From assembly GCA_963978895.1 (NCBI GenBank), contig OZ022246.1, forward strand, positions 25,694,859 to 25,758,858: a stretch of DNA of 64,000 bases. Reading direction: 5' to 3'. Numbering within the stretch: the first letter of the stretch is position 1; each line of letters opens with the position of its first letter. Made by a program: the position numbers and the translations under genes. Source of the DNA: Erpobdella octoculata. Its lineage: Eukaryota > Annelida > Clitellata > Hirudinida > Erpobdellidae. The notes below the pieces were generated by a model. It ran no database searches. It was not told the DNA's origin and saw only the letters and a list, made by a program, of their open reading frames with translations. Positions 1,309 to 63,330 of the stretch are shown piece by piece.

Positions 1309-2638
1309 TTGTTTGTTAGGATTGATATACCTTGACAGATAATCATTGACAAAAACAGAATTGAGAACAAAATTTATCGAACTGTAGGATCGGGTGTCCA
1401 TACCCAATACGATACTGACTAAAGGACCTGAAAATTTAAAGTTTAATTGTGCCCGGCCACTACTATCTGCATAAAGAGAAAATGGTTGATTCCTGTACGA
1501 AGAAGAAGGATTTTGAACCAAATCTTCTAACACACAATTATTTGCTGAAAAATATTTGAAATTATTAATAGTGTGCTTTCCACATTTTAAATTTATTAAA
1601 ATCAAATAGTTTGAATTATATTAAAAATAATGTGAAAAAAACGTTATTTTGTTACAATAACAATAACAAAATGCTAGTAAAATCATCTAAGATAAAAATC
1701 TCAACTTATTTAAACATTGATAAAATTATTGTAAACTTACTTGTTGTAAAATCTGTAAAACAAATAAGAAATTAAAAAACCTTTTAATAAAACCATTTTG
1801 TTTTGTTTTTTTATACTGAAAGCTTTTTTGAATTTTTGAAAAATATAAAATAAGTTAATTTTAAATAAATGATAAAAAATAAATATTTTTCCATAGATAA
1901 ATGTATATTAAAAAAATAAATTAAATATTTTCAGTTTTCATACAACTAACAGTTTTGATTTGTAAATTTTACAAATAAGTAAAATCTTGAAAATAATGAA
2001 ATAAAGTTAGCTGAGCATGAAAATTATTCTGTTTTTAATACAGATAATAATTTTAAATAAAAAAAACTTACTTTGCAAACAAATAAAATAACAATCTGTT
2101 GAGCATGAAAAAGAATACCACATAGAATTGTAATATGAAATGCATGTCTTATTATCTGATGGCTGTCCAAATCCCCATTTCAAGTATTCCGCTTTTGTGT
2201 CTTAGATTATTAATTGTCAATCAAATTTTGAAATTGTAGTCATTACTTATTTTGTAACTCACTTGAATTTAACCAATAATAGCCATCGTTTTTATATCTT
2301 AAGTTAAGCCATATGGGATTATAATTGAAATTTCCCCACGTGGCAAGTGCTGCTTCAACAACATCTTGATATGATTGGTTATAAATTTCTACTAATATAA
2401 AATTATTTTCTTGACAATATAACTGAGCTTCAGTGAAATTTTTATACAGTGAAAGTCCTTTTGTAAACAAACAAATGTTGAGATTATTGTCGCAATATTG
2501 AAGAAATTTAGCGTTCGCCATGATCAGAGTTATCATTAGTACTATCCATTGATCTAAAAAAAATAATTTAACTTAAAACGTAAACAAAGTTGTGATGACT
2601 ATATTTTTTTCATACTTACAAATTAGATTTGTTTTCAT
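1309..2638 (-). CDS. Gene A0: CTLD receptor, 5' exons only (3' part off the window)
   Basis: Class A receptor whose first five exons are in the window: signal 2620-2638, CTLD first half 2263-2553, CTLD second half 2072-2200, a 12-nt microexon 1741-1752, and D-domain exon 1309-1544. The signal peptide reads MKTNLIYQWIVLMITLIMANA and the mature protein starts KFLQYCDNNLNICLF. The CTLD has the extra N-terminal Cys pair of long-form CTLDs, the WLNL-type core, and ends CYFICLQ. The usual EPN and WND calcium motifs are replaced by QPS and WYS. The D exon starts with a conserved Cys ([11 protein letters not shown]) and ends NPNKQ. Splice sites and phases match those of A1. The Thr-rich, EGF, IPT and TM exons are expected left of position 1. 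Confidence 0.8.
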
Positions 2639-3392
2639 TTTATTGTCTAATAAGCTGATGTTATTCTTAACACAAAGTTTTTCTGTTCACCTCAAAACAT
2701 TTTTTTAAAAGTTTTCTTATAACAACAAACATCAATTGCATACTAACCAATAATAGTATAATTATTTTATCAATATCTAAAGGAAACTAAAATTAAAAAA
2801 AAAACTAATGTTTCTGCCAAGTATAAATATAAATGAAAAACGGTGACTATATCTGTTAATAGTACTCACAGACTTGTTTTATTGAGAAAACAGCACAAAC
2901 CGCATCAATAAACAGCACAACAATATGTAGTTGTATTCATTGCTTGAAATATTAGTTTCTATTTATCTTCCTAATTTACATATGAAATCAACATCTTCCG
3001 TGTACACCATTGCATTATATTTAAAAAAATTGTTTTTTAATCAATTAAAAATCAATTGAGCCAACATCTTTTAAATTTTTCAAACAGCAAAAATAAAGCA
3101 AAAACATCTTTTTTGCGTATTAAAGTATTTACAAATGTTAATAAGTAGTGAATGTTGTTTGATTTGTGAAAAAACCTATACATTTATTTTGCTATTGATT
3201 CAGTTCTAAGTAGCACAATCAACACTATTGCACAGCACAATAATAGTTTCACTCATAGCTTGAAATATTGTTTATTTATTATCTGTACGTTTAACTTCCT
3301 TGTGCAACATTAAACGTATTGAATGTTAAACTTTTCAAAACACAAACCATTTAAAAATTTGTTTGTTTATCTAATTAAATAAATTAACTTAT
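2639..3392. other. 5' flank of A0, no gene seen
   Basis: AT-rich flank upstream of the A0 start codon. It aligns by eye with the flanks of A1 (from 15392), A2 (from 23857) and A4 (from 53618), including a recurring motif with AACTTCCTTGTGCAACATTA around 3294-3314. No open frame with domain content is visible on either strand. A promoter must lie here, but I cannot define a TATA box or start site. Confidence 0.5.
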
Positions 3393-61800: not shown

Positions 61801-63330
61801 TGCGCTTCTTTAAGAATCATATCGAATTACACACAAAATTAGCCATTTCCTCTATCTAGATCAAAAGACACCATTTTTGTTTGTTTAGGAGAATAAAAAT
61901 TGTGTAATTTTATTTGTGAAAAATAAATAAAAAAATAATATTTAAATGGAAGAATTAAAAAAAATAAAAATTTTTACTTGTTTGTTAGGAAGGAGGTTCG
62001 TTAAAACGTTATAAGGCGGCACATTAACAGAATTTAGTTTAAAAATTACTCCAGTGTTGCCTCCAAATTCGGTAGCCAATACGATACTTGTCACCGTTCT
62101 GACTACAAAACCTGAAATATTAAAGTCAAATGAAGCCAAGCCACTCCCATCTGAATAAATAGAAAATGGTTGATTCTTATAAGGAGAAGAAGGATCTTGA
62201 ACTAAATCTTCTATATCACAATCATTTGCTGAAACAAATATTAAAAAGTATTAGTAGTGTAATCTTTACATTTAAAATTTATAAAAGTAATATAGTAATT
62301 TAATTCAATTACAGTAACAAAATGCTAATAATATTATTTGAGATAAAAAACTCAACTTAATAAAAATTTTGATTGAACTATTTCAACCTTACTTGTGAAA
62401 TCTGTGAAACAAATAAAAAGTTAAAAATAACATAACAGAAATTTTGTTTTTTAATAACAACAAATATCTCTGTTTTTTTATACTAGAAGTTTTTTCTTAA
62501 ATTTCACTAATTATAACAATAAGTGCATTCAAAATAAAAGCTAAAAAATATGAAAAAAATAAAAAATGAAAGAATTTACATTGAAACTATATGATAGAAA
62601 AAACGCTTTTGGTTTTTTACAACTAAGAGTTTTGAATTACAAATCTTTTAAATTTACTTGCAGATAAATAGAAAAAAATTAGTTAAGCATGAAAATTATT
62701 TTATTCTTAATACACCTAATTATCTTAAAATAAAAATTATAAAAACATACTTTGCAAGCAAATAAATGGACGAATCAATGAGCATGAAGAAGTAGAATAC
62801 CACAAAGAATATCTTAAATAATTGCATGTACTATTATATGCTGGCTCTCCATTTTTCCAATCCCAATTCAAGTATTCTGCTTTTGTGTCTTGAATTATCA
62901 TTTTCAAATTAAATTTTAAAATTGTATTCATAACTCATTTTTCAACTCACCTGAACTCAACCAATAATAGCTATCGTTTTTATATCCTAAATTCAGCCAT
63001 TTGAATTCTTCTTTCATATTTCCCCATGTGATAACTGCTGCATCAACAACACTTTGATATGACTGATTATAAATTTCTAATAATATAAGATTGTTTTGTT
63101 GACAATATTTTTGAGCTTCAGTAAAATTTTTTAAAAGAAAATATCCTTTGGTGAACAAACAAATGTTGAGATTTTCGTCACAATATTGGACAAATTTAGC
63201 GTTCGACATAATCAGTGTTAACATAAAAACTATCCATTGATCTATAAACAATTATAACTTAAGTTAAAAAATAAACAAAGTTGTGATGATTATTATTTTT
63301 TTTAAACTCACCAATAAGTGTTGTTTTCAT
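58830..63330 (-). CDS. Gene B2: CTLD receptor with YxxM repeat tail, shortened, 536 aa
   Basis: Exons: 63312-63330, 62951-63241, 62751-62888, a 9-nt microexon 62393-62401, D 61978-62228, stalk 60826-61102, TM 59700-59805, tail 58830-59349; total 1611 nt, in frame. Signal ends LIMSNA; mature start KFVQYCDENLNICLF; CTLD ends RPFICLQ. D begins DCDIEDLVQDP and ends VGACK; the stalk is Thr-rich. TM: SSSVAGGTLIVIAIVAIVVV. The tail keeps HDYTPM (YxxM) and 13-residue repeats with YVTP but has one repeat fewer than B1. It stops at AAT-TAA where B1 reads AAT-GTA, losing about 38 residues. The front half (CTLD, D, stalk) is closer to class A than B1 is, and an EGF exon relic lies in the stalk-TM intron. 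Confidence 0.83.
60105..60240 (-). mobile_element. tRNA-derived SINE
   Basis: Minus strand: GGCTGTGGTGGTATAATGGT (A-box-like) and AGGTCGCGGTTCGAATATCA (B-box) at tRNA spacing, then an unrelated body to GGGGTTTTCACTAACC. It lies in the B2 stalk-TM intron. Confidence 0.7.
60284..60601. repeat. Compound (GAT)n/(GAC)n microsatellite
   Basis: Alternating blocks of GAT, GGT and GAC units with a duplicated internal block (60415-60490 and 60510-60575). Its right edge runs straight into the truncated EGF exon of B2. Confidence 0.95.
60602..60693 (-). pseudogene. Truncated EGF1 exon inside B2
   Basis: Minus strand reads AVATTSLNVCISNPCNNNG then KDYICS, matching EGF1 of A1 with the same 5' splice context, but the exon is cut after the fourth Cys by the GAT array. 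In frame it would give poly-Ser and reach TAG in the array. The B2 frame is correct only if this piece is skipped. Confidence 0.8.

Follow-up and report, generated by a model that had tools for sequence, protein, structure and literature searches.

A 64,000-nucleotide stretch of the genome of the leech Erpobdella octoculata (the window, analysed as a single haplotype) carries twelve related copies of lectin-like receptor genes, all on the minus strand: five of type A, two of type B and five of type C. Projection of the copies and self-alignment of the window recover the order given by the first-pass annotation, with C and A alternating and B inserted twice, and a duplicated C+A block is visible in the self-alignment. 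The cluster, on chromosome 9, extends beyond the window: across 324 kb the first CTLD exon is matched 60 times, 45 times on the minus and 15 times on the plus strand. The predicted genes make the locus a big and rapidly changing array of lectin-like receptors of the cell surface, larger than first reported. A cnidarian source of the DNA, suggested at first by low GC, is rejected. The mitochondrial contig is read best under the invertebrate code (COX1 477.2 bits with code 5, against 446.9, 449.6 and 474.8 with codes 4, 9 and 13), and in the first 10 of its 19.1 kb the genes follow the annelid pattern, nad4L-nad4-LSU rRNA-nad1-nad3-nad2-cox1-cox2, all on one strand.

Three copies in the window are intact: the C receptor C4 (8605..15391; 15 exons, 961 aa), the B receptor B1 (28951..33005; 8 exons, 571 aa) and the A receptor A3 (42225..45070; 8 exons, 349 aa), the last with the tail motif YNAL-x9-YQEI. 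The B1 tail (29125..29469, minus strand) is built on a 39-base coding repeat, present in 8.8 copies according to TRF, with YVTP in four of the units. C1 (1309..2638) is open and runs off the window; its signal, CTLD and first D2 exons lie inside, and the others, including the tail, lie to the left (to window coordinate -4314) and are open exon by exon. Two further copies are open with shortened tails, C5 (46664..53617) through a premature stop close to the tail end and B2 (58830..63330) because its tail stops earlier than that of B1. B2 places a C-type head, D2 and stalk on a B-type transmembrane segment and tail, and near this join lies a remnant of a C-type EGF1 exon (60283..60691, minus strand) that runs into an ATG/CAT microsatellite; the B2 model skips the EGF exon in phase.

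The remaining six copies are damaged or partial. A1 (4435..7216) has its CTLD and transmembrane exons but is decayed: a stalk exon contains a stop, the reading frame of the tail is broken, and a further stop comes late. A4 (17534..18016) is reduced to a piece of the CTLD, both exons of which contain stops, and has no transmembrane or tail match. C2 (18835..23856) keeps the head, ipt5 and tail exons, lacks egf1 to ipt4 and is left with mismatched phases, while C3 (35113..41042) is missing the start codon at the expected exon, has lost the CTLD acceptor and carries a one-base frame break in the tail. A0 (57446..57623) is a fragment of two CTLD exons. A2 (25737..26675) is a headless A module downstream of B1, comprising two stalk exons, a transmembrane exon and an open ITAM-like tail; its head exons are deleted, and inverted repeats sought around the deletion gave nothing of note. 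These six of twelve copies, together with the 60 matches, support the birth-and-death expansion with many independent inactivations that had been proposed.

Receptor anatomy and the exchange of heads and tails

The exon chains are all predicted from the genome sequence, with the signal peptide judged by eye, and those of C4, A3, B1 and B2 (8 exons in B2) are open and phase-consistent with AG/GT at every internal splice site. The predicted topology is type I, an N-terminal signal-like segment and the CTLD being followed by a transmembrane segment and a tail. In type A the predicted order is signal, CTLD, Thr stalk, transmembrane segment and ITAM-like tail; type B has in addition a second domain in the head (D2), and its tail repeats the YVTP motif, while type C combines D2 with three EGFs, IPT/TIG exons and a third type of tail. 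Pfam Lectin_C (PF00059) is found above its curated cut-off in all four models (26.7-37.7 bits against 22.6) and EGF and TIG domains in C4; at E values up to 1, none of the four has a Pfam match to an Ig domain. The canonical calcium and sugar motifs of sugar-binding C-type lectins are EPN or QPD plus WND, and these are absent from all nine copies read by eye (C1-C6, A3, B1, B2), which makes ordinary calcium-dependent sugar binding unlikely.

The copies had been described as sharing one head on three unrelated stalk, transmembrane and tail modules, and each half of this description requires some adjustment. The heads are related but are not a single head: leaving aside A0 and headless A2, the five C copies are 72-81% identical to one another in the CTLD, B2 is 68-71% identical to C, B1 50-61% to the other nine copies, and A (A1, A3 and A4) as low as 42-55% to C. 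Between the three types the transmembrane segments and tails have no convincing similarity (best E 0.007, over a 33-residue stretch in the transmembrane region), but the stalks are not unrelated, since B and C share D2 and the Thr-stalk exon that comes next, and only A is without D2. Exchange of heads and tails, for which a comparison of CTLD and tail phylogenies had been proposed as a check, is shown by trees, and AU tests reject the grouping of heads by tail (p = 0.0017, 0.00044 and 0.00014), although the bootstrap of the tree has not settled (correlation 0.980). The core of the earlier claim, that related heads are carried on unrelated tails, is upheld by these trees and tests; heads have been exchanged between tail types, with B2 a C-type head joined to a B-type tail.

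Protein searches do not prove that relatives are absent, as they need shared five-residue words and a length window. With C4 as query there were 114 matches, apparently to the EGF part only, judging from names, Pfam columns and 10-23% coverage; none of 1339 candidates for A3, and none of 7990 scored for an alignment of 10 sequences, reached 0.001. A profile of the 10 sequences likewise gave no match at 0.001 in PDB, and D2 gave nothing convincing in either PDB (best E 0.48) or Pfam (best E 0.067). The C4 CTLD alone has weak matches to NKG2D (E 0.00076) and the mannose receptor (E 0.0027).

Tyrosine motifs in the tails and selection on the domains

That the tails are rich in phosphotyrosine-type motifs is confirmed in a sample of 30 of 38 gene-finder tails, each of at least 20 residues and not picked by motif, in which there are 62 YxxL/I/V sites against 39.2 in shuffles and nine spaced pairs against 2.1; the gene finder produced models for 38 of 60 units, many of them over-extended, and related tails are not independent. 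In the same sample neither the count of tails with any YxxL/I/V site (21 against 20.4) nor that of tails with an ITIM-like site (15 against 10.9, P 0.07) is significantly above shuffles. The A tail pair is spaced by nine residues and falls outside the strict ITAM (YxxL/I-x6-8-YxxL/I), and pairs at the strict spacing show no enrichment (1 against 0.3 expected, P 0.27) in a 23-tail count, which is weak because most of its tails were listed through a filter requiring tyrosine motifs; the relaxed x6-12 form of the pair is present and enriched in the tails. As for the likeness to paired receptors seen by the first-pass annotation, related heads do occur on different tails, but no near-identical head with a clear ITIM tail was found; the tails closest to an ITIM (IEYADL, LKYAEI, VEYLNI) belong to distantly related heads in other parts of the cluster.

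Over the usable C copies dN/dS is highest in D2, which in C4 begins in exon 14043..14278 on the minus strand and goes on in exon 12826-12550 (1.43; 0.96-2.32), followed by the CTLD (0.67; 0.44-1.01), IPT (0.53; 0.34-0.79), the cytoplasmic part (0.32; 0.19-0.59) and EGF (0.29; 0.16-0.54). Without C2 and C3 the values are 1.35 (0.89-2.22) for D2, 0.73 for the CTLD, 0.26 for EGF and 0.32 for the cytoplasmic part, and D2 fails to exceed the CTLD in 3.9% of bootstraps and the tail in none of 1000; in both tests 1 lies within the D2 interval. As dN/dS drops from the outer to the inner domains, it is D2 and not the CTLD that changes fastest. The EGF domains and tail are under purifying selection, with relaxed or diversifying change in the head.

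Readings of the locus

The locus is best read as a probable cluster of CTLD receptors of type I that evolves by birth and death and signals through phosphotyrosine. These receptors may have an immune or self/non-self use, and may include activating and inhibitory pairs. The head (the CTLD, plus D2 in B and C) would bind cell-surface or microbial ligands by protein-type contacts, suggested by the absence of EPN/QPD and WND. Src-type kinases would phosphorylate the tails, with the A tail recruiting a putative tandem-SH2 kinase through its YxxL-x9-YxxI pair and the B tail (YVTP repeats, YIPM) and C tail docking other SH2 proteins; there are 88 exon-level matches to SH2 domains in the genome. New head/tail combinations would arise by unequal crossover and gene conversion, by which binding and signal output could be re-paired, and the most likely use would be recognition by coelomocytes or epithelial cells.

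A real if minor possibility is that the locus encodes a pattern-recognition lectin repertoire against microbes or parasites, whose expansion and head diversity would track the surfaces of pathogens, with tails that only trigger uptake or effector release and no self/non-self balance, in line with the CTLD expansions of suggested immune role in passages on other lophotrochozoans (PMC10140915, PMC5117596). An arms race would fit the diversified outer domains and decayed copies, but the missing motifs speak against ordinary calcium-dependent sugar binding, and the variety of tails seems beyond what uptake would need. Receptors for adhesion or guidance, for example neural or epithelial, with EGF and IPT/TIG domains, mucin-like stalks and tyrosine tails used in cell sorting and not in defence, are unlikely: C4 has EGF and TIG domains, TIG domains occur in plexin/MET-like receptors, and receptors for growth and adhesion likewise use YxxP, YxN and YxxM motifs, but guidance receptors would hardly be expected to have half of their copies broken or partial, or a D2 with dN/dS above 1 (interval including 1) over a constrained tail. 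It is similarly improbable that the locus is mostly a graveyard, in which one or two useful receptors were recently amplified, the rest decay neutrally and the swaps are by-products of unequal crossover, for although the six damaged copies, the D2 interval and the A3 versus A2 tail dN/dS (1.89, not significant) would suit this, purifying selection is clear on the EGF and cytoplasmic part of C1, C4, C5 and C6 (0.26, 0.32), and the tails of A77k and headless A84k give 0.37.

Comparison with known receptor systems

In layout this candidate receptor cluster resembles the killer-cell receptor clusters of vertebrates, assembled from different building parts. NK lectin heads lack canonical sugar-binding residues, as do the nine leech copies read. 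The vertebrate NKC (Ly49, NKG2, NKR-P1) and paired receptors, as treated in parts of PMC3533184, offer further parallels in clustered CTLD receptors, birth-and-death evolution, tyrosine-motif signalling and related ectodomains with different signalling ends. The vertebrate NKC receptors are type II with a C-terminal CTLD, whereas those of the leech are predicted to be type I with an N-terminal head, plus D2, EGF and IPT. Activating members of paired-receptor systems combine a charged transmembrane residue with an ITAM adaptor, in contrast to the leech A type, in which the tyrosine motif sits in the receptor's own tail and the transmembrane segment of A3 (IGLGVCLTILVLVLIAFGILIFHFV) has no Arg or Lys.

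Among invertebrates, the Botryllus FcoR described in sections of PMC12065747 are likewise type I, belong to a locus that evolves by birth and death, and have ITIM or hemITAM tails and reported polymorphism; their motif-swapping alternative splicing is comparable with the headless A module behind B1, and their ectodomains are Ig plus sushi, unlike the leech CTLD plus D2. Hydractinia Alr, from portions of PMC11999971 and PMC12065747, is similar as an invertebrate cluster of diversified receptors with ITAM/ITIM motifs, and differs in its Ig-superfamily ectodomain. The likeness to NK lectins and hydrozoan allorecognition drawn earlier stands for clustered, related heads on different tails and fails as a family match, given the type II topology of the vertebrate NK lectins and the Ig-superfamily membership of Hydractinia Alr; the leech cluster belongs to none of the NK, Alr and FcoR families. 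The lophotrochozoan C-type lectin expansions of bivalves and Olavius (PMC10140915, PMC5117596) share large lineage-specific CTLD sets, in sources whose main text has no occurrence of ITAM or ITIM and whose relevant passages contain no head/tail exchange. Among the matches listed for literature on invertebrate ITAM/ITIM lectins and annelids there is no description of a leech cluster of such receptors.

Allograft rejection occurs in leeches and earthworms (PMC2248247), and PMC10748772 describes the coelomocytes of annelids as contact-cytotoxic and NK-cell-like; in the literature searched no description was found of the molecular basis of either activity in leeches. One doubtful proposal is that the locus is an annelid counterpart of NK and allorecognition complexes made from CTLDs on type I receptors. 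In it, unequal crossover would join variable D2/CTLD heads anew to conserved phosphotyrosine tails of activating, docking or inhibitory kind. Alternative splicing may do the same, from the B1 exon ending at 30208 to one of the open A2 module's exons downstream, which start at 26675, 26531 and 26264. The resulting receptors would serve contact cytotoxicity of coelomocytes and graft rejection. The locus is a concrete and testable candidate receptor set, and for this species there are a chromosome-scale assembly, an alternate haplotype (GCA_963978845.1) and Ensembl annotation. If the heads vary between haplotypes and the tails signal through ITAM-like pathways, a C-type-lectin case would join the allorecognition loci that cnidarians and tunicates have built on Ig domains, and would add weight to the idea of a single tyrosine-signalling logic on which unrelated recognition heads converge.

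Extent and anatomy of the cluster

The analysed assembly comprises 385,989,122 bases in 94 contigs and differs slightly in version from that of the Erpobdella octoculata genome note, which gives 386.12 Mb in 101 scaffolds (PMC12881851); the contig C10 (26.45 Mb), with the window at C10:25694859-25758858, corresponds to chromosome 9 (26.46 Mb). Genes, genetic code and gene order of the mitochondrial contig (C94, 19,123 bases) are consistent with an annelid; the source is a leech, not a cnidarian. Self-comparison of the window bore out the first-pass annotation's twelve copies on one strand, all of them minus, and blocks of C plus A recur as units (51330-46220 vs 13279-8171, 89% in alignment; 45926-42851 vs 8164-5258, 78%). 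Across the 324 kb examined (60 kb to the left, the window and 200 kb to the right), the first exon of the C-type lectin-like domain (CTLD) has 60 matches, 45 minus and 15 plus, which are exon matches rather than a gene count; 54 of them span at least 60 residues, and matches come within about 5 kb of either end. Pfam Lectin_C matches on this contig reach out to 25,626,454, and genome-wide, at E 0.001, at least 13 of at least 21 matches lie on it. A second group, of four matches, is found about 1.2 Mb away (C10:24397449-24419627, 24.40-24.42 Mb).

Exon chains predicted for C4, A3, B1 and B2 are open and phase-consistent in all four cases, begin with a 19-base exon ending in phase 1, and divide the CTLD over two exons; Pfam finds Lectin_C in each, and EGF and TIG in C4. 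In A copies the CTLD is followed by short Thr-rich exons, a transmembrane (TM) exon and the tail. The exon chains contradict the earlier description of three unrelated stalks, for a Thr-rich stalk is common to B and C, together with D2, a putative domain of about 120 residues with a cysteine at each boundary. C copies continue with three EGF exons, five exons labelled ipt1-5 (in C4, two TIG stretches by Pfam), TM and tail. Canonical sugar-site motifs are absent from the CTLD in the nine copies read. A rough gene finder, for which 77 introns served as training set, produced models for 38 of the 60 units; because it over-extends, its output was used only to count motifs and to supply some of the head sequences for a single protein search. 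In many models a signal segment and CTLD are followed by a Thr-rich stalk, TM and a tail with tyrosines.

Several other features lie among these genes. Five predicted receptors in the right flank (106454, 162290, 210800, 224597 and 227595) appear by eye to have two CTLDs each, and pieces of an apparent Ser/Thr protein kinase frame, from a gene or a pseudogene, occur among left-flank lectin units (about -38000 to -40500). A 41-base tandem array (7.6 copies) occupies 56664-56974, and ATT/TAA microsatellites of up to 181 units lie within or between genes at 30691-31234, 33926-34114 and 44108-44179.

Exchange and loss among the copies

The phylogeny shows that heads have been exchanged between tail types. 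In a tree of 26 heads the B2 head groups with C heads (96/95), apart from B1, in spite of 84% identity between the tails of these two copies. AU tests rejected three groupings, namely B1 with B2 heads (p 0.0017), the three heads that sit on B tails (p 0.00044), and every head on a C tail, with the -5.7 kb unit counted among them (p 0.00014), so that the comparison of CTLD with tail exons proposed in the first-pass annotation shows heads not grouped by tail. The head tree requires a minimum of 3 tail-type changes, with a floor of 2 (14 labelled rows, three types). The unit at -5.7 kb has an A-like CTLD and a D2 of B-like type, and its EGF, IPT and tail are C-like. The B2 sequence shows where head and tail meet: an EGF exon of C type runs into a microsatellite at 60.6 kb, and B-type sequence follows from 59.8 kb.

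Independent inactivation, also anticipated, is seen when the C4 exons are projected on other C copies. All 15 align in C1, C3, C5 and C6; C6, right of the window, is intact, and C1 reads open although its stalk exon is shorter. The tail of C5 is cut short by an early stop, C3 has lost its start codon and one splice acceptor and is broken in frame, and C2 has lost egf1 to ipt4.

Two A modules have no head and retain an open TM and tail: A2 (exons starting at 26675, 26531, 26264 and 26049), behind B1, and a second module at 84.5-83.9 kb, which follows a B-like head located at 89.6 kb. Exon phases would permit a splice from the upstream B head to the A2 tail, and motif swapping through alternative splicing is reported for the Botryllus FcoR loci (PMC12065747). 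Plain head loss explains the DNA as well.

Selection and tyrosine motifs

Among C copies, dN/dS (Nei-Gojobori with codon bootstrap; head and stalk were compared in 15 pairs and the other domains in 10, the C3 tail being excluded because of its frame break) was 0.67 (0.44-1.01) for the CTLD, 1.43 (0.96-2.32) for D2, an interval that includes 1, 0.90 (0.39-2.19) for the stalk, 0.29 (0.16-0.54) for EGF, 0.53 (0.34-0.79) for IPT and 0.32 (0.19-0.59) for the cytoplasmic part. The single exon ipt5 also exceeded 1 (1.15) and was pooled with IPT in later estimates. Restricted to C1, C4, C5 and C6 (6 pairs), the values were 0.73 (0.43-1.31) for the CTLD, 1.35 (0.89-2.22) for D2, and 0.26, 0.51 and 0.32 for EGF, IPT and cytoplasmic part; the D2 ratio was above that of the CTLD in 96.1% of bootstraps and above that of the tail in 1000 of 1000. 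The outer part thus changes while the inner part is kept, with D2 the part to watch. Gene conversion among the C copies is likely, because dS is unequal between domains, and since the D2 interval also includes 1, what is claimed is an outside-to-inside gradient, positive selection not being proven. Between A tails, A77k and the headless A84k, both outside the window, gave 0.37 (P(dN<dS) 1.000), and A3 and A2 gave 1.89 (P(dN<dS) 0.086).

The A tail ends in YNAL-x9-YQ(E/K)I-x3-(Y/F)DN in four A copies and in altered form in two more distant ones. The B1 tail carries YIPM, YDEI, YTNL and four YVTP from a 39-base coding repeat (29125-29469, 8.8 units by TRF); B2 has three YVTP (58878-59178, 3.7 or 7.7 units in two overlapping TRF rows). 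Many YANKNSG-type repeat copies occur in the predicted tail of a minus-strand unit at 146830, right of the window. Motifs were counted in 30 of the 38 gene-finder tails, not selected by motif, the 8 under 20 residues being left out. With related tails entering as non-independent rows, YxxL/I/V occurred 62 times, against 39.2 in shuffled tails (P < 0.001) and 27 when the tails were reversed, spaced pairs 9 times (2.1 and 2), YxN 48 times (23.1 and 32) and ITIM-like motifs 23 times (14.1, P 0.020, and 15). The number of these 30 tails with at least one YxxL/I/V was not in excess (21 vs 20.4 shuffled). Under the rules linking tyrosine motifs to SH2 proteins, the tails have putative SH2 partners; no Syk- or SHP-type gene could be made out among the 88 exon-level SH2 matches in the genome.

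Possible function and related systems

Structure and evolution fit receptors that would recognise something variable and report via phosphotyrosine, and the lack of sugar-site motifs in the CTLDs read points to protein ligands. Annelid coelomocytes are described as contact-cytotoxic (PMC10748772) and annelids, including leeches, as rejecting grafts (PMC2248247), which makes a self/non-self role a natural hypothesis. Pathogen recognition would explain the data nearly as well. A description of the locus was not found in the open-access literature searched, a scope outside which most subscription papers fall. The first-pass annotation had likened the cluster to paired-receptor complexes. As to family membership the likeness does not hold, the leech cluster differing in topology or ectodomain from NKC, Alr and FcoR; as to manner of working, the cluster resembles paired-receptor clusters in several respects.
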